Positions 326 through 7,181 of a DNA stretch of 46,559 nucleotides are shown piece by piece (position 1 is the first letter of the stretch; each line of letters starts with the position of its first letter). Source of the stretch: Desulfobulbaceae bacterium (GTDB taxonomy: Bacteria; Desulfobacterota; Desulfobulbia; Desulfobulbales; Desulfocapsaceae). The position numbers were made by a program, and so were the translations under genes. The stretch is from positions 1 to 46,559 of the forward strand of contig JALSMA010000047.1 in assembly GCA_026988015.1 (NCBI GenBank), written 5' to 3'. The notes below the pieces were generated by a model, which was not told where the DNA came from, ran no database searches, and saw only the letters and a list, made by a program, of their open reading frames with translations.

Positions 326-1039
326 GTGGATGTGGAAATGGTTCAGAGAAGCACCCAAACTGCATGTAGACAATGCGGTATTTGTTGCAGAAGTGGTGGA
401 GCAGCACTGCACCATGCCGATATTGCCCTGCTTGAGCAGGGTGTGATACCCAGGCGAGATCTTGTTACCATCAGGAAGGGGGAGTTTGCCCATAATCCTG
501 TGAGTAGAAAGGTTCAGCCGACTATGGAAGAAATTGTCAAACTTCGTGGGAAGGGCAGAGGGTGGGAGTGCTGTTACTATGAGCCTGTATCTAAAGGATG
601 TTCCATCTATGGAACAAGGCCTCTGGCCTGTTCCACTTTGAAATGCTGGGCCCCTAGTGAAAGTTTGAAACTTGTGGAAACAGACCTGCTTTCAAGAATT
701 GGAATTTTAGGGACAGACAGTGCTACTATCCTGTTGATTTCAGAGCATGATGGATACTGTCCCTTGCCTGATTTTAAAAACCTTGGATACAATCTGGATT
801 GCCGGGAGAGTGAGACACTGAAACGTCTTGACAAGTCAGTGAATGGCGATATTGCCTTCAGAAATCATGCTGTGACGATTTCAGGAATGGTTTTGGAGGA
901 TGAAATGTTTTTGTTTGGAAGACCTTTGTTTCAGATGCTGCATCCCTTCGGATTAGATATTGTACAGGATGGAATGGTATTGAGTGTGCGGATTAACCGT
1001 AACCGGAAGAGAGGTGCAGGTGAAAAATATCGAGATTGA
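326..1039 (+). CDS. YkgJ-family cysteine cluster (Fe-S/Zn) protein
   Basis: The 237-residue product carries the YkgJ-type cysteine signature: CRQCGICC near residue 15-22, then a CCYY patch, and C-S-I-Y-x3-RP-x2-C further on, with another cysteine shortly after. Family members are thought to bind an Fe-S cluster or zinc; the biochemical role is mostly unknown. The start is a GTG with AAAGG ten bases ahead; an in-frame ATG at 338 is the alternative. The 3' end overlaps the start of a TusA-like gene, and the AGAGG at 1010-1014 inside this gene is that gene's ribosome binding site. The two are therefore translationally coupled, which suggests a joint role in sulfur or selenium chemistry (inference). 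Confidence 0.8.
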   Translation: MDVEMVQRSTQTACRQCGICCRSGGAALHHADIALLEQGVIPRRDLVTIRKGEFAHNPVSRKVQPTMEEIVKLRGKGRGWECCYYEPVSKGCSIYGTRPLACSTLKCWAPSESLKLVETDLLSRIGILGTDSATILLISEHDGYCPLPDFKNLGYNLDCRESETLKRLDKSVNGDIAFRNHAVTISGMVLEDEMFLFGRPLFQMLHPFGLDIVQDGMVLSVRINRNRKRGAGEKYRD

Positions 1040-1241
1040 TTATCGTGGGGATTGCTGAAGAGGGTTTAAAGATGTGCGGGCACGTCTTGGTAAAATGACC
1101 AGGGGCCGGGAGTTTCAATTTATCTGTACCGCAGATATGGCGGGGAAGATGGACAGAATTGTTACTCTGGCAGGGGGAATTATTCGTGCAAAGGATATTC
1201 AAGCAGACGGAACAGTTTTAACGGTGATGAAAGCTGAATAA
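1020..1241 (+). CDS. TusA/SirA-like sulfurtransferase, probable selenoprotein (UGA = Sec13)
   Basis: Reading from GTG 1020 gives 73 codons to TAA 1239-1241, interrupted only by one in-frame TGA at 1056-1058. Both flanks match the TusA fold: strand IEIDYRGDC before the TGA, then helix KDVRARLGKM, the TRGREFQFICTAD turn, and a C-terminal strand ending GTVLTVMKAE. In TusA the active site is CPxP; here the cysteine is followed by the TGA, giving Cys12-Sec13. A hairpin fitting bacterial SECIS rules lies right behind (1069-1088). AGAGG at 1010-1014, inside the upstream YkgJ gene, is a well-placed ribosome binding site. TusA proteins relay sulfur as a persulfide; a Cys-Sec pair would suggest selenium or redox chemistry (inference). 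The alternative is a pseudogene with a nonsense mutation, or reinitiation at GTG 1074. Preservation of both halves and the hairpin favours Sec. Confidence 0.72.
1069..1088 (+). promoter_or_regulatory. Candidate bacterial SECIS hairpin
   Basis: AAGATGTG (1069-1076) pairs over all eight positions (one G-U) with CACGTCTT (1081-1088) around a CGGG loop (1077-1080). The loop begins 18 bases after the TGA at 1056-1058 and has a G at its second position. Bacterial SECIS elements bound by SelB need a stem of this size, a G within the first two loop bases and a spacing of about 16-37 bases, so all three rules are met. The hairpin lies within the coding frame, as expected in bacteria. Confidence 0.65.
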
Positions 1242-1296: not shown

Positions 1297-2046
1297 TTAC
1301 CATGTTTTACGATCCAGTTCAGCGCCCTGAGTAGAGATCGTGATTTGCTCAACGGGGACGGTTTTACCGGCCCGTTCCATGGCCTGCTTAATGATACCGT
1401 TCATTGCAAAGCAGCAGGGGACTTCCATGATGAGGATGGTTAGGTTTTTTAGATTGCAGCCGGTAATGATTTCTGTGAAACGTTGTACATAGCTTTCCGC
1501 ATCGTCGAATTTGGGGCAACCCATCATAACGACTTTACCGTTAAGGTAATCAAGCTGAAAGTTGGGTGCAGAAATAGCGCAGCAGTCAGCAGCAACCAGT
1601 AGTTCGGCACCCTGAAGAAAGGGAGCAGTGGGAGGAATCAGACGAATCTGTATGGGCCAGTGGGTGAGAGAAGAGGTGCCACCACCAGCTGCCATTGCCG
1701 GTTTGTTCGCAGCCTGACACGGGGTTGAGGGTGCAAACGTCTGCAACTTGGCCGAAGGGCATCCAGAAGGTTTTTGTGCGAGAGCTGCAGATTCTTTTTT
1801 CTGTTTGGCAAGATGCTCTTCTACAGCTTTCTCGTCAAAATCATCGGCTTTACGTTCGATGATTTTCAAGGCTCCGGTGGGACATGATCCCAGGCATGCG
1901 CCCAAGCCGTCACAGAGTTTGTCGGCGATCATTTTTGCCTTGCCGTCAATAATGACAAGTGATCCTTCGGCGCAGTCAGGAACACAGAGCCCACAGCCGT
2001 CGCAAAGTTCTTCGTCAATCTCAATAATTTTCCGAGTAGTTGTCAT
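1297..2046 (-). CDS. FrdX-like ferredoxin-domain protein of the hcp regulon
   Basis: This 249-residue soluble protein has an N-terminal two-cluster ferredoxin domain: CDGCGLCVPDC at about residues 15-25, then CDGLGACLGSCP at about 45-56, where Gly fills the usual second Cys position. A low-complexity linker with scattered Cys leads to a C-terminal domain containing VAADCCAIS, MMGCPKFDD and EVPCCFAMNG. This layout matches the ferredoxin-like protein (FrdX) that accompanies hcp in sulfate reducers. It is presumed to pass electrons to Hcp or a related enzyme; its reaction is not known. The start has GAGGATACCACG directly ahead. An HcpR-like palindrome lies at 2121-2134, 75 bases upstream, matching the one before hcp. 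Confidence 0.75.
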   Translation of the reverse strand: MTTTRKIIEIDEELCDGCGLCVPDCAEGSLVIIDGKAKMIADKLCDGLGACLGSCPTGALKIIERKADDFDEKAVEEHLAKQKKESAALAQKPSGCPSAKLQTFAPSTPCQAANKPAMAAGGGTSSLTHWPIQIRLIPPTAPFLQGAELLVAADCCAISAPNFQLDYLNGKVVMMGCPKFDDAESYVQRFTEIITGCNLKNLTILIMEVPCCFAMNGIIKQAMERAGKTVPVEQITISTQGAELDRKTW

Positions 2047-2120
2047 CGTGGTATCCTCTTTTGAGTGAATTTGTTGTATTTATTTGTAATTCTATTGTAT
2101 CAGAACAACATACAATCTCC

Positions 2121-2134
2121 TTGACCTGGGTCAA
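2121..2134 (-). promoter_or_regulatory. HcpR/FNR-type operator of the FrdX-like gene
   Basis: TTGACCTGGGTCAA is a perfect 14-base palindrome, extended by C and G to 16 bases. It has the form expected for HcpR, the Crp/Fnr-family regulator of hcp genes in sulfate reducers. It lies in the divergent gap between the FrdX-like gene (-) and the antiporter gene (+), so either or both could be controlled. Matching sites stand upstream of hcp and the SulP gene. Confidence 0.65.
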
Positions 2135-2187
2135 GGGGTGTTTTTTTTCTTGATCTTTTTGTTTTCTCATCTGTTTAGGGGGATGGA

Positions 2188-3786
2188 ATGGATATAGTAA
2201 TGATAGTCGTGGCATTTTGCTTTGGTTTTATTATAAAGCAGGTTGGGTTGCCGCCACTGGTTGGGTTTCTAGTTGCCGGTTTTATTTTGAATTGGCTGGG
2301 TTTTGCGGGGGGGGATGATTTAGAGAAGTTTGCTGATACCGGAATTCTTCTTCTACTTTTCTCCATTGGCCTTAAGGTTCGCGTGAAAAGTTTGTTAAAG
2401 GCGGAAATTCTTGTCGTAGCTTCATTGCACATGCTGGTCACTGTGGTTCTTCTCGGCTCACTGGTCTATCTACTCTCATATACAGCCCTCTCTGTTTTTG
2501 CAGGTGTTGATTGGAAAATTTCCCTGCTCATTGCTTTTGCTCTCAGCTTTTCAAGTACTGTTTTTACTGTAAAAGTTATGGAAGAAAAAGGGGAAATGAG
2601 TTCCAAGCATGGTAGTATTGCCGTTGGAATTCTTGTCATCCAGGACTTTTTTGCTGTTCTCTTGCTTACTCTTTCAAGTGGTAAGCTTCCATCTATCTGG
2701 GCTTTTGGTGTTATTGGGCTGCTGGTTTTACGAAAACCATTGATTTCTTTAATGAAAAGAAGTGGTCATGGGGAGTTGCTGGTTCTTTTGGGGCTGTTAA
2801 TACCTGTTGCTGCAGCTAGTCTTTTTGAATTGGTGGGGCTGAAACCTGATCTTGGGGCACTGTTGATTGGTATGTTACTGGCAGGACATCCCAAGAGTAA
2901 TGAGCTTGCAAAGGTTATTTTAAATTTCAAAGATTTCTTACTGGTAGGTTTTTTTCTTACCATTGGACTCTCAGGTTTGCCAGATCTTGTGAGTCTTAGC
3001 GTGTCATTTCTTTTTGTTGTTGTAATGCCATTTAAAGTGGCACTCTTTTACGTTCTTCTAACGCGCTTTAAATTACGGGCTCGTACGGCTACCTTGGCGT
3101 CACTAAGCCTTGCGACATATTCCGAGTTTGGATTGATCGTAGGATCCTTGGGAGCGTCAAAACAGTGGCTCAGTAATGAGTGGTTAGTTATTTTTGCTAT
3201 ATCATTATCACTCACCTTTATACTGGCCTCGCCTTTAAACTCAGCCTCCCTAGTCATCTATCGTCGCTTCCGCACGTTTTTGCGGCGTTTCGAGACAAGT
3301 GAGCGTCTTCCTGATGATAAAATGTTGCATGTGGGAGATGTCGACGGAGTCGTTTTTGGAATGGGAAGGGTTGGTACAGCAGCATACGAAAAACTTAACC
3401 AGCGATACGGCAGAAGGGTGGTTGGGGTGGATTCTGACCAGGAACAGGTGCAGCAGCACCTTGACGATGGATTACACGTTATTCATGGTGATGCTTCTGA
3501 TTATGATTTCTGGGAACGTATTGAAGTACAGGGAGATACAATAAAAACTGTCATGCTGGCCATGCCGTGTTTTGAGGCGAACCTTTATGCAGCCTCTCAA
3601 ATAAGAGAGAGGAGTCCAGAGATCATCATTGCGGCTATTGTTGCTTTTGATGACCAGGTAGAACTCTTGAAAGAGGCTGGAGTTTCATTGGTTTATAATG
3701 TTCACAAGGAGGCCGGTATCGGTTTTGCCGATCATGTCTGCACTCAGGTGAAAATATTGTCGGAGGTAAAGGCGGTCTCTCTCTAG
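2188..3786 (+). CDS. Kef-type monovalent cation:proton antiporter with RCK/TrkA-N domain
   Basis: The 532-residue protein has a CPA2 Na+/H+-exchanger membrane domain of about 12 helices (residues 1-355), starting MDIVMIVVAFCFGF without a signal peptide and including the re-entrant SFSSTVFTVKVMEEKGE region. A cytoplasmic Rossmann domain follows at about 385-520 with GMGRVGTAAYEKL as nucleotide-binding turn and GVDSD as the ribose-binding acid. KefB/KefC-like proteins exchange K+ (or Na+) for H+ and are gated by ligands of the TrkA-N domain. The start is an ATG with GGGGGATGG ahead. It is divergent from the FrdX-like gene across the HcpR-like operator and converges on the next gene with only 2 bases between stops. 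Substrate ion cannot be told from sequence. Confidence 0.85.
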   Translation: MDIVMIVVAFCFGFIIKQVGLPPLVGFLVAGFILNWLGFAGGDDLEKFADTGILLLLFSIGLKVRVKSLLKAEILVVASLHMLVTVVLLGSLVYLLSYTALSVFAGVDWKISLLIAFALSFSSTVFTVKVMEEKGEMSSKHGSIAVGILVIQDFFAVLLLTLSSGKLPSIWAFGVIGLLVLRKPLISLMKRSGHGELLVLLGLLIPVAAASLFELVGLKPDLGALLIGMLLAGHPKSNELAKVILNFKDFLLVGFFLTIGLSGLPDLVSLSVSFLFVVVMPFKVALFYVLLTRFKLRARTATLASLSLATYSEFGLIVGSLGASKQWLSNEWLVIFAISLSLTFILASPLNSASLVIYRRFRTFLRRFETSERLPDDKMLHVGDVDGVVFGMGRVGTAAYEKLNQRYGRRVVGVDSDQEQVQQHLDDGLHVIHGDASDYDFWERIEVQGDTIKTVMLAMPCFEANLYAASQIRERSPEIIIAAIVAFDDQVELLKEAGVSLVYNVHKEAGIGFADHVCTQVKILSEVKAVSL

Positions 3787-3788
3787 TG

Positions 3789-4415
3789 TCAATGTTCCAT
3801 CAGGTACTTTTTGGCACTCGCTGTCTTAAGATCAGGGGCGGTTTTTTCTCCCTTCCTGTCGGCCAGTGCTGTGAGGCGGCAGGCATCAAGATATATATCC
3901 AAGGATGCTTGTTCCGTTGCAGAGCCTGGTTCTTTCCGATTGAGAAGCATGCTGACTGCATTGATTATTGAGCCATCAGCATTGAGAGTCTCAAGAAGAG
4001 CAAGGGGTTCATCAGCGCTAACGAGAAGGGTTGCAGCAAGTACAGCCGCCATGTCTCCACGTTGTTCTTCCCTGCAGAGTTGTTCTGCTATTTCGGTTCG
4101 GATGGTGGCAGTTTTGTAAATATCTTCTTTACCAACGAGCTGCTTTCGGACAGCAATGGCAACTTTGTCTTTGAATAGATTTTTTTGTTTTATCTGGAGT
4201 TCCGGCGGCATAGATCCAAGGCACTGTTCGGCATGGGGGCAATAAGCAGCACAGCCGAAATCAATACGGGGATTTAAAACTCTGTTGCCACATTTTTTGC
4301 AACTGCGCTGGGAATCATCTTTGAAAAATTCGAGTTCGTTACCACAGTGGGGGCAGGGGGCCTCAAAAACAGCTTCGCCATCCCAGTATCGATTGTCCTG
4401 TCCGGGGCATTGCAT
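3789..4415 (-). CDS. Zinc-ribbon protein of the hcp/siroheme neighbourhood, function unknown
   Basis: A 208-residue protein whose first half holds two cysteine pairs typical of a zinc ribbon (CPHCGNE near residue 21 and CKKCGNR near 40), then CAAYCPHAEQC around 55-65. The rest is helical and resembles the tail of proteins sometimes annotated as phosphohydrolases; I see no HD or other catalytic motif. The start chosen is ATG 4415 (MQCPGQDNRYWDG), preceded by AAGGAG. A longer frame to 4496 runs through a dispersed repeat and is not credible as coding. It lies 3' of the siroheme protein gene in the same direction, separated by repeat copy A. A role in nitrosative or redox response is only suggested by position. 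Confidence 0.65.
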   Translation of the reverse strand: MQCPGQDNRYWDGEAVFEAPCPHCGNELEFFKDDSQRSCKKCGNRVLNPRIDFGCAAYCPHAEQCLGSMPPELQIKQKNLFKDKVAIAVRKQLVGKEDIYKTATIRTEIAEQLCREEQRGDMAAVLAATLLVSADEPLALLETLNADGSIINAVSMLLNRKEPGSATEQASLDIYLDACRLTALADRKGEKTAPDLKTASAKKYLMEH

Positions 4416-4431
4416 ATGCTTTCTCCTTAGT

Positions 4432-4510
4432 ACCTGAATTCGTGATGGCTTCGTAATTGTTTTTTTACCATACTGAGATACAAATATAAAATTCACAATC
4501 AGGTATGTTG
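4432..4510 (+). repeat. Dispersed palindrome-ended repeat, family 1 copy A
   Basis: About 79 bases nearly matching copy C at 38255-38334 and clearly related to B (5265-5343) and D (8166-8236). Ends form an imperfect inverted repeat (ACCTGAATTCGTGA against ACCTGATTGTGAAT). The first end also contains a small palindrome of the form GAAxxCGTxAxGGxTTC. The copy stands directly upstream of the zinc-ribbon gene's ribosome binding site, palindromic end towards the gene. Confidence 0.75.
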
Positions 4511-4541
4511 AAAAAAATCAGATTATGGCAGCAGCTAATGT

Positions 4542-5180
4542 TCACGGATTCAAAACCAGTTGCTGTAAGGCCTCAATTCCAAAGCGTTCCATAAAACGTG
4601 CCGTCCGTGAAGCGGGGTGCGCTTTTGCCTGATAAACAGTAAGGCATTTTTTTATAAGGGTAATTATGGAATCATCAGAGAGATTTTTTGCGACAATATT
4701 CCCAAGGCGAGGATTTCCTCCACCATTTCCTCCAAAAATCAGTGACCAGCCACTTTTTGAAGCAAACACGCCAATATCACGAACATAAGGTTCGGTGCAG
4801 CACATACGACACCCGGCAATACCAACTTTCACCTTTGCCTTTAATGGTTCATCAAGGGATATCTTCTCAATCTTTTCTCCAAGTGCCATGGAATCAGCTA
4901 TGCCGTATTTACACCATTTAATTCCGGGACAGGATTGTACATAATGAACCCCGTTTTGAACCTGAGGACGGACATATCCTTGCAGTTCTTTCTGCAACTT
5001 AGGGATCTCGTCCTTATCCATACCAAGGAGTGCCAGGCGCTGGGCACCAGTTATTTTGGTCTTGGGAACATTATATTTATTGATGATGTTGAGAATGATT
5101 TGAAAATCTCTTGGCGCAAAGAGTCCCATGTTCAAGCTAGGCACAACACTGAAGGTCTTTTTAATAGTGGTATTTTCCAT
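4542..5180 (-). CDS. Small siroheme/[4Fe-4S] sulfite (nitrite) reductase-type protein
   Basis: The 212-residue product corresponds to a single ferredoxin-like half plus the siroheme-cluster half of nitrite/sulfite reductases, the size of the small 'assimilatory-type' sulfite reductase of Desulfovibrio. Cluster ligands are visible as SCPGIKWCKYG (C-x5-C) at about residues 85-95 and GCRMCCTEP (C-x3-C) at about 124-132, followed by the glycine-rich FGGNGGGNPR. Such proteins bind siroheme coupled to a [4Fe-4S] cluster and can reduce sulfite or nitrite in the cytoplasm. ATG 5180 is preferred to an upstream TTG at 5198. The Shine-Dalgarno is poor, and a strong terminator stands just upstream (5213-5246), pointing to attenuation or weak expression. 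It lies downstream of hcp in the same direction. Confidence 0.8.
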   Translation of the reverse strand: MENTTIKKTFSVVPSLNMGLFAPRDFQIILNIINKYNVPKTKITGAQRLALLGMDKDEIPKLQKELQGYVRPQVQNGVHYVQSCPGIKWCKYGIADSMALGEKIEKISLDEPLKAKVKVGIAGCRMCCTEPYVRDIGVFASKSGWSLIFGGNGGGNPRLGNIVAKNLSDDSIITLIKKCLTVYQAKAHPASRTARFMERFGIEALQQLVLNP

Positions 5181-5199
5181 GATACTTGAGGATATCAAA

Positions 5200-5246
5200 A
5201 ATAATTAAAAAAGGCAGGGTACGAGGTTTTCACAACGTATCCTGCC
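5200..5246 (-). terminator. Rho-independent terminator immediately upstream of the siroheme gene
   Basis: On the minus strand GGCAGGATACG (5246-5236) pairs over 11 positions (one G-U) with CGTACCCTGCC (5223-5213), loop 12 bases, then a run TTTTTTAATTATTTTT. The T-run ends only about 20 bases before the ATG at 5180. It may simply insulate the gene from hcp, but the placement is also that of a leader attenuator. Confidence 0.75.
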
Positions 5247-5264
5247 TGGAGATGGAAAACATAA

Positions 5265-5343
5265 ACCTGAACCCGTGACGGTTTCATGATTATTTTCAGA
5301 ACCTGTTGAAATGCGAATTTATTAATCGCAATCAGGTATGTTT
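5265..5343 (+). repeat. Dispersed palindrome-ended repeat, family 1 copy B
   Basis: The most divergent of the four full copies, sharing the ACCTGAACCCGTGACGG end, the central part and the AATCAGGTATGTTT end with A and C. It lies in the leader between hcp and the siroheme gene, palindromic end facing the siroheme gene. The rest of the gap (5344-5490) shows no gene; an isolated GAACGTTCAGGGATTC at 5461-5476 resembles the palindromic end. Confidence 0.65.
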
Positions 5344-5492
5344 GGAAAAATCACTTGTCTTCCGATGCATATTTGCTGCTGATACACCCTACTTTCTTTG
5401 AATCCATTGACATGGCATATTACAATCAACGTGTAGGAAAAACCACGCTGCATTACCATTGAACGTTCAGGGATTCAGGGTGAGAAGTAAAC

Positions 5493-5525
5493 CTTCAGGA
5501 GAAACCGGTTAGGTTACTCCTGAAG
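5493..5525 (-). terminator. Hairpin behind hcp
   Basis: CTTCAGGAG (5493-5501) pairs with CTCCTGAAG (5517-5525), extended inside by AACC/GGTT after one mismatch. It starts 16 bases after the hcp stop. The T-run on the minus strand is poor, so it may act as an mRNA-stabilising end or weak terminator. Confidence 0.6.
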
Positions 5526-5540
5526 AGGAATACGTGGAAA

Positions 5541-7181
5541 TTATCCGAGTATGGTTTTCAGATCATCTGCAGCGGTCTCACCGATAGGCATAACGTTGAA
5601 GTTCTCAACCAAGACATTCAGTACGTTTGGAGTAACGAATGCTGGAAGGGAGGGTCCAAGACGGATATCCTTTATTCCAAGACTGAACAGGGAGAGAAGG
5701 ATAACAACGGCCTTCTGCTCGTACCAGGAGAGGATAAAAGAAAGTGGGAGGTCATTGACATCACACTCAAATGCTCCTGCAAGTGCCACTGCGATTTGGA
5801 TTGCAGAGTAGGCGTCGTTACACTGTCCAACATCAAGCAGACGGGGAATACCACCAATATCACCAAGTTTTTTATCAAAGAAGCGGAATTTGCCACAGGC
5901 AAGAGTCAGGATCATACAGTCTTGTGGAATCTCCTCTGCCATCTCTGTGAAATAGTTACGGCCAGGTTTTGCGCCATCACAGCCACCTACGAGGAAGAAG
6001 TGACGAATTGCCTTGGATTTTACCCCTTCGATTATTTTGTCAGCCACGCCAAGTACGGTATTGCGGGCAAAACCAACCATTACTGTGTCATTATCAACTT
6101 CATCGGTAAATCCGGGAAGTGACAGTGCCTTCTCAATGACAGCGCTGAAATCTTTCTCTCCGTCATTGGCCTCAACGTGTTTAACTTCAGGCCATCCAAC
6201 AAGGCCGGTAGTGAATACGTTGTCAATATAGGAATCTTTTGGTTTCTGGATACAGTTTGTTGTGAACAGTATGGCACCGGGGAATTCAGGCATCTCTTTC
6301 TGCTGGTTCTGCCACGCAGTACCATAGTGTCCGTAGAAATGGTCATATTTCTTTAACTCAGGGTATCCGTGGGTCGGAAGCATCTCGCCATGGGTGTAGA
6401 TATCAATCCCTTTCCCTTGGGTCTGCTCAAGGAGCATTGCGATGTCTTTGAGATCATGACCAGAGACCAAGATACATTTATTAGGACGGTGTCCAAGTGG
6501 TACTTCGGTGGGAACAGGATGTCCGTAAGTTCCAGTGTTACCAGCATCAAGGAGTTCCATGGCCCGGATATTTATTTCACCGGTTTTTAAGGCAAGGGCT
6601 ACCAGATCACCAAGTTCCATGTCAGTGGTAAGGGCTGCCATTGCATGGTGAACAAATGCGTATACTTCATCATCTTCCTGGCCAAGAACAGCGGCATGCT
6701 CAGCATAAGCTGCAAGTCCACGAAGGCCATAGGCAGTGATCTGCTTCAGTGACTGAAGATCTTCGTTGGGGTCAAGGGTGTTTATGAAGTTCAGTGCGGC
6801 ACCCTGCTCTTCAAGACCTGCAATGCTCACAGCAGGGCTAAAAGTAAGAGCAGCAGCAGATGACTCTATGGTCCCGCCAGCAGCTTCAACTTTGGTTTTC
6901 AGCTCATCACGAAGACGTACGGTTTTATAGATGAGATCTTCAAATCGGGCAGGATCAAAATCAACATTGGTAAGGCATGCAAATATAGCTTCGCAAACGA
7001 AGGTGTCAATAGCATTATCAATGACGTTTACTTTGCGTCCGGCATCTGCAACAATACAGAGTCCCTGCACGGCATGGGTGAGCAGATCTTCAAGTCCTGC
7101 AACAGCTTCAGTTTTTCCACAAACACCAACGGTGGTGCAGGCAACGCCTTTAGCAGTTTGTTCGCATTGATTACAATACAT
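5541..7181 (-). CDS. hcp: Hybrid cluster protein (hydroxylamine reductase / NO reductase)
   Basis: A 546-residue protein of normal class I/II Hcp length. The N-terminal [4Fe-4S] ligands are Cys3, Cys6, Cys15 and Cys21, a spacing of C-x2-C-x8-C-x5-C as in strict anaerobes. The later part holds the hybrid-cluster ligand region (HGEMLPTHGYPEL, FTTNCIQKP, DVGQCNDAYSA). Hcp acts in the cytoplasm and reduces nitric oxide or hydroxylamine, protecting against nitrosative stress. The start has AGGAGGATATACCCT ahead of ATG. An HcpR/FNR-like palindrome lies at 7318-7331, 137 bases upstream. The FrdX-like gene, its usual electron-transfer partner, is 3.5 kb away on the same strand under the same kind of operator. 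No hcr-like reductase is in the window. Confidence 0.97.
   Translation of the reverse strand: MYCNQCEQTAKGVACTTVGVCGKTEAVAGLEDLLTHAVQGLCIVADAGRKVNVIDNAIDTFVCEAIFACLTNVDFDPARFEDLIYKTVRLRDELKTKVEAAGGTIESSAAALTFSPAVSIAGLEEQGAALNFINTLDPNEDLQSLKQITAYGLRGLAAYAEHAAVLGQEDDEVYAFVHHAMAALTTDMELGDLVALALKTGEINIRAMELLDAGNTGTYGHPVPTEVPLGHRPNKCILVSGHDLKDIAMLLEQTQGKGIDIYTHGEMLPTHGYPELKKYDHFYGHYGTAWQNQQKEMPEFPGAILFTTNCIQKPKDSYIDNVFTTGLVGWPEVKHVEANDGEKDFSAVIEKALSLPGFTDEVDNDTVMVGFARNTVLGVADKIIEGVKSKAIRHFFLVGGCDGAKPGRNYFTEMAEEIPQDCMILTLACGKFRFFDKKLGDIGGIPRLLDVGQCNDAYSAIQIAVALAGAFECDVNDLPLSFILSWYEQKAVVILLSLFSLGIKDIRLGPSLPAFVTPNVLNVLVENFNVMPIGETAADDLKTILG

Follow-up and report, generated by a model that had tools for sequence, protein, structure and literature searches.

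The window considered here is a stretch of 46,559 nucleotides from a Desulfobulbaceae bacterium (GenBank assembly GCA_026988015.1, contig JALSMA010000047.1, forward strand). Close to its left end lies a small gene, designated Sec-TusA below, which is embedded between a YkgJ-type gene on the same strand and a ferredoxin-type gene on the opposite one. The features of this locus were as follows:

326..1039 (+): YkgJ-type CxxCxxCC protein (PF03692), overlapping the start of the putative selenoprotein
1010..1014 (+): probable ribosome binding site AGAGG, 5' of GTG 1020
1020..1241 (+): Sec-TusA gene, putative 73-residue selenoprotein, GTG start at 1020, TAA stop at 1239-1241
1056..1058 (+): TGA, candidate selenocysteine codon 13, directly after Cys12 (TGC)
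1069..1088 (+): putative SECIS hairpin, stem 1069-1076/1081-1088 (8 pairs), loop CGGG 1077-1080
1297..2046 (-): 4Fe-4S ferredoxin-type protein, convergent neighbour

The frame running from 1020 to 1241 contained one in-frame TGA only (1056-1058, codon 13). Its position directly behind the presumed active-site Cys, as given in the initial annotation, was read in the window sequence itself. Translation from GTG 1020 had been proposed as well, and this start was retained: AGAGG is found at 1010-1014, the YkgJ frame (326-1039) shares 20 bases with the start of the Sec-TusA gene, and the start was further supported by five relatives (L250, L252, L254, L261 and L263), which displayed ATG at the same place. 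Mechanical ORF calling on the window yielded only a 55-aa ORF from GTG 1074. In 8 out of 8 comparisons, third codon positions were the most variable ones both before and after the TGA, the part preceding it being only 21 bases long.

The initial annotation had proposed a check for selA, selB and selC; selA, selB, selD and tRNA-Sec were all encountered in the same genome and all scored over their cut-offs, with 597 bits for SelA (cut-off 268), 375 for SelB (242), 374 for SelD (125) and 76.1 for tRNA-Sec (47). The gene for SelD displayed one in-frame TGA of its own (G000:C17:37204-38145). Among 14 control genomes, five exceeded the cut-off for tRNA-Sec, two for SelB, one for SelA and two for SelD, so that a tRNA match alone is weaker evidence. 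At E <= 1e-60, SelB was present in 74 out of 82 genomes of the order bearing the Sec-TusA gene and in 143 out of 175 lacking it; as these incidences are similar, co-occurrence adds little. One of the eight gene-bearing genomes without SelB (G003) was 98% complete.

Downstream of the TGA, the eight-pair hairpin with a CGGG loop had been described as lying within known bacterial SECIS limits, and its geometry was confirmed. It begins on base 11 after the TGA and has G as second base of its loop, which lies 18 bases away from the TGA. The limits stated in PMC13188914 are a loop of 3-9 nt, a stem of 4-16 bp, a G within the first two loop bases, a distance of 16-37 nt from the UGA and an MFE <= -7.5; the window hairpin, with a loop of 4 nt, a stem of 8 bp, G in second place, a distance of 18 nt and an energy of -8.6 kcal/mol, falls within all of them. 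Compared with shuffled sequences, the 37-nt piece folding at -8.6 kcal/mol reached a z of -1.95 and the 45-nt piece a z of -1.51, while pieces of 61 nt and 81 nt did not stand out from them (z 0.02 and -0.36, respectively). A scan of the window with Rfam gave no match over cut-offs. Taken singly, the window hairpin is only weakly above chance, whereas with the family comparison it is far above chance; given the modest result on one sequence, the case was built by comparison.

For this comparison, the proteins of the family were recoded with synonymous codons drawn from each locus, the kinship of the sequences being left uncorrected. The set comprised 63 genes, L023, which is without TGA, being left out. 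The full 7-bp stem was present in 57 of them, as against 1.5 expected under synonymous recoding, and 429 out of 441 stem pairs were kept where 282 were expected. Of the remaining six genes, four were one pair short and two (L019 and L030) were without this stem. Folding energies lay under the synonymous mean in 61/63 genes, with a mean z of -1.5, although 22/63 failed to reach a z of -1. In several stem pairs both partners had changed, for example from A-T to G-C or from G-C to A-T. All 113 anchored TGA loci had G as second base of the loop; 100 of them displayed seven pairs, ten six pairs, one five pairs and two three pairs (L224 and L250 were mis-anchored by the pattern, and L201 and L265 unanchored; L224 was read separately).

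Relatives were gathered by six-frame searches in which the U of the window protein, used as query, was replaced by Cys, a substitution by which any Cys homologue would score higher. These searches uncovered a family with the motif D-Y-R-x-D-C-U. In 76 related genomes, 30 matches were distributed over 23 genomes, and 29 of the 30 displayed the in-frame TGA (one of these 29 also a TAA). Profile A1 found matches in 82 out of 257 genomes of the order and in 30 out of 395 genomes from the phylum; 26 of the latter carried one TGA each, and the other four gave weak matches without the motif, which were dropped as non-members (L096, L098, L099 and L100). Profile A5, built for outer members, matched in 18 out of 55 genomes of another class, with one TGA in 18/18 matches. 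A search of an 84,980-species collection with one pattern yielded 26 loci; viral contigs, searched with the same pattern, and plasmids contained no family match. Among named records, the family occurs in Desulfocapsa and Desulfogranum mediterraneum DSM 13871 (L059), and further ones bear labels such as Desulfobulbaceae and Desulfocapsaceae.

The working set of 121 genes consisted of 120 fetched stretches plus the window; 120 were counted, as L265 was a fragment of fewer than 60 residues. L015, L058 and L114 represent one gene broken by TAA, which was left out of the 64-row alignment, and L265 is the same broken gene. Further matches, besides the four weak ones, lie outside this set: G005:C82 and G019:C231, with one TGA each, and the partial G480:C155, G543:C173, G611:C108 and G610:C227, the one from G610 with a TAA.

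The 120 sequences displayed U (TGA) at the Sec column in 115 cases, Leu in four and TAA in one. The preceding column was occupied by Cys in 114, by Thr in four, and by Ile and Ala in one each. Two genes kept U without the preceding Cys (Thr in L239, Ala in L243), which suggests that, of the Cys-Sec pair, Sec may be the more essential residue. Homologues with Cys at the Sec codon had been expected; none were found (0/120 in the set, with TGA in 18/18 matches of another class and one pattern covering the space outside the phylum), which makes the case stranger than first supposed. Relatives that all stop or carry Pro at this codon, the contrary outcome envisaged beforehand, were not encountered either, TGA being kept together with the covarying hairpin. 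To judge from the genomes searched, the family is seemingly Sec-only.

One genus, whose genes lie directly behind tatC, appears to have lost the pair. Its members range from CU with six to seven of seven stem pairs (L203 and L217) through Thr-U with five of seven (L239) to Thr/Ile-Leu encoded by TTA or CTG (L204, L205, L195 and L206), and these four lost-codon loci beside tatC kept only three to five of seven pairs. This seems to depict a stepwise loss of Cys-Sec accompanied by decay of the SECIS hairpin, the order of steps being deduced from the sequences. The coincidence of codon loss and hairpin decay forms a natural loss series and thereby a natural control. In L224 the Sec codon is replaced by TAA while the hairpin is intact, which points to either a recent loss or an error in sequencing. 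SelB was retained in three of the four genomes with the Leu form.

With regard to structure, an AlphaFold2 model based on 24 sequences reached a pLDDT of 88.9 and a pTM of 0.74, the four other models scoring 75-81. Its predicted beta-alpha-beta-alpha-beta-beta topology follows the order of the TusA fold. Compared with solved structures, the six best rows were YeeD/TsuB, TusA and SirA-like proteins, with Z from 11.0 to 8.6 over 70-73 residues; the first unrelated row had a Z of 8.4, from which the lowest TusA-type value (8.6) is not separated. The five best Foldseek chains were likewise of the TusA family, with weak E-values (best 0.0023). On the strength of the model, a TusA fold of the Sec-TusA protein is highly probable.

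Sequence libraries were less accommodating. No scanned member exceeded the PF01206 gathering score of 28.6 bits in Pfam; the best, the outer member L084, reached 20.3 bits (TusA match at E 5e-4, below cut-off), one inner member matched TusA at E 0.11, and the window protein had no Pfam match at E up to 1. NCBIfam (release 20.0) placed 29 inner and nine outer members in no accepted family at E up to 1, and Pfam likewise assigned none to the 29 inner members or to the outer ones scanned. Alignment to a TusA profile with hhalign (17 sequences from 24 TusA loci, seven of which did not fit the pattern) gave probabilities of 1-3%, and the local mode omitted the motif; the TusA label consequently rests on the predicted fold. 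The 'TusA-like' designation of the initial annotation, given by eye, therefore stood as far as the predicted fold is concerned (AlphaFold2, solved structures, Foldseek) and fell as regards Pfam membership. By the Pfam standard or the CPxP motif the protein is not filed as TusA, despite its predicted fold. A PDB sequence search with A1 gave a single match, attributed to chance.

The selenocysteine had also been placed at the first Pro of CPxP, and a global profile alignment returned this register with low confidence, Cys12 falling on the TusA Cys and Sec13 on that Pro. Counting back from the common M-x-x-G would give the same register. CPxP itself is absent and replaced by C-U-x-G/A; on the ungapped register, Asp45 and Asp51 of TusA would be absent too.

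Several known systems bear comparison. TusA (E. coli YhhP; PDB 1dcj, 3lvj, 3lvk) and SirA-like proteins (PF01206) resemble it in predicted fold and length, with Z 9.6-8.6 over 70-73 residues, and likewise have the reactive residue where helix 1 begins, but the family described here differs by CUxG/A with selenocysteine, by having no Pfam match over cut-off and by an identity of only 13-17% in structural alignments. Cys19 of TusA accepts sulfur from IscS (PMC2854127). The best structural match was YeeD/TsuB from thiosulfate uptake (PDB 8k1r and 8j4c, Z 11.0 and 10.6), although YeeD acts with the transporter YeeE. The SirA-like YedF/FdhU (TIGR03527) is a precedent for a TusA-type domain tied to selenium metabolism (PMC5322559, PMC2432076); it combines TusA with a C-terminal DsrE domain and carries CPxP, in contrast to the single 73-aa domain with Sec, and neither the window protein nor the members compared with NCBIfam matched TIGR03527. 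Adjacent Cys-Sec is shared with SaoL, SaoC, HgcA, MbdU, KCU-star and CopZ-type form 2 (PMC13188914 Table 1), which however possess other domains and gave no relevant NCBIfam match to the 29 inner and nine outer members.

A 2026 review (PMC13188914) tabulates 119 prokaryotic selenoprotein families, and no TusA/SirA entry was found in its Table 1. No Sec-containing TusA-type protein occurred among the literature matches listed, in part the best 20 of 204, with Haft and Tolstoy 2025 and Haft and Gwadz 2023 lying outside this scope. The families that the review credits to Haft and colleagues all have identifiers in NCBIfam or Pfam, two libraries without a match to the Sec-TusA family. The suggestion of a new or under-annotated selenoprotein agrees with the NCBIfam result and with this table. 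Judged by comparison of sequences, the Sec-TusA gene of the window almost certainly encodes a real selenoprotein. Together with its relatives it very probably represents a genuine selenoprotein family, apparently unlisted so far, that combines a TusA-like fold with a Cys-Sec pair. The absence of a Cys form from the genomes searched would keep it hidden from Cys/Sec-pair searches. A family extending across many genera and seemingly Sec-only would show a missed class of selenoproteins.

Genes surrounding the family varied between lineages and recurred within them. A selenium metabolism-associated LysR gene (LysR_Sec_metab, over the NCBIfam cut-off) lay directly upstream in eight loci from two families, at about 15 bases or less in seven and at 149 bases in one. 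Three loci of one genus, two of which were scanned with NCBIfam, displayed selB upstream on the same strand, with a gap of about 19-31 bases between its end and the conserved domain. A NifS-like desulfurase was found downstream in one locus (475 of 531 bits, below the model cut-off). Because neighbours change between lineages, the selenium-related ones could be lineage accidents; two separate selenium links (selB and LysR) amid changing neighbours nevertheless favour a role in selenium metabolism.

In the mechanism proposed here, SelB and the SECIS hairpin would insert selenocysteine at UGA codon 13, a step that comparative genomics supports. The chain would adopt the predicted TusA-like fold and, on the register deduced above, present Cys12-Sec13 at the start of helix 1, where TusA carries Cys19, its sulfur acceptor, and the first Pro of CPxP. 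Sec would be the reactive atom. A partner would supply it with either an oxidised substrate or a chalcogen, namely selenium or sulfane sulfur, and the adjoining Cys would resolve the loaded Sec via an S-Se bond. The product would act as a selenium or sulfur carrier or reductant within selenium metabolism, as supported by the adjacent selB, selenium-LysR and single NifS-like desulfurase genes. To the full statement (selenoprotein, TusA fold and mechanism) we attach about an even chance; a role in selenium handling, suggested by the neighbours, has slightly less than even prospects, and that the protein is a carrier as opposed to a pure redox protein is rather doubtful.

A thiol/selenol redox protein, in which Cys12-Sec13 would cycle between the reduced state and the selenenylsulfide to reduce disulfides, peroxides or nitrosative products and which would play no part in selenium supply, is a minority possibility that leaves the selB and selenium-LysR neighbours unexplained. 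The TusA fold, moreover, is a carrier fold, and the redox genes near the window gene lie on the opposite strand. This reading draws on the vicinal Cys-Sec, on the expectation that most uncharacterised selenoproteins are redox proteins (PMC13188914), on the ferredoxin-type gene that follows on the other strand in 24/121 loci (within 200 bases in ten) and on the sulfite/nitrite-reductase-type and hybrid-cluster genes that come after it in the window. A binder of metals or organometals, whose Cys-Sec pair would hold a soft metal (Hg, Cu, As) and hand it on with YkgJ as partner, is improbable: several CU-pair families are metal-related by name (SaoL, HgcA, MbdU, CopZ-type; PMC13188914 Table 1) and YkgJ, with its putative zinc/iron-chelating domain, adjoins on the same strand in 15/121 loci (12 upstream, three downstream), but it is missing from most loci, and the annotated neighbours, a minority of the clusters, hold no gene for metal transport or resistance, L197 having an iron-transfer P-loop NTPase. 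That the TGA is a terminating nonsense codon, with the downstream 55-aa frame as a separate gene or remnant, as mechanical ORF calling and the two copies broken by TAA (L224 and L265) might suggest, has next to no likelihood in view of the conservation of both TGA and hairpin among the relatives, the third-position variability on both sides of the TGA and the Sec machinery of the genome.

A TusA-fold selenium carrier with obligate Sec might in addition report selenium status, since a protein made only when selenium is plentiful would do so, and might thereby link supply to SelB and the selenium-LysR; we regard this extension as unlikely. The family as such would place Sec on a sulfur-carrier fold, and it offers a definite candidate for the way in which cells carry or sense selenium.

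Other neighbours were lineage-specific and comprised tatC, CreA, a CbiK-like gene and DusB; a further neighbour cluster is presumably polyphosphate kinase. A gene of the metallo-beta-lactamase fold (PF00753) lay upstream of selB in L210 (411-3091 (-)) and of the selenium-LysR gene in L169 (4237-5974 (+)). On the minus strand of the window, the ferredoxin-type gene, a gene for an unannotated 235-aa protein and the sulfite/nitrite-reductase-type (PF01077) and hybrid-cluster (PF03063) genes formed one block (1297-7181), the members of which recurred near the selenoprotein gene in other genera, in 10, 8, 8 and 7 of 61 loci, respectively.
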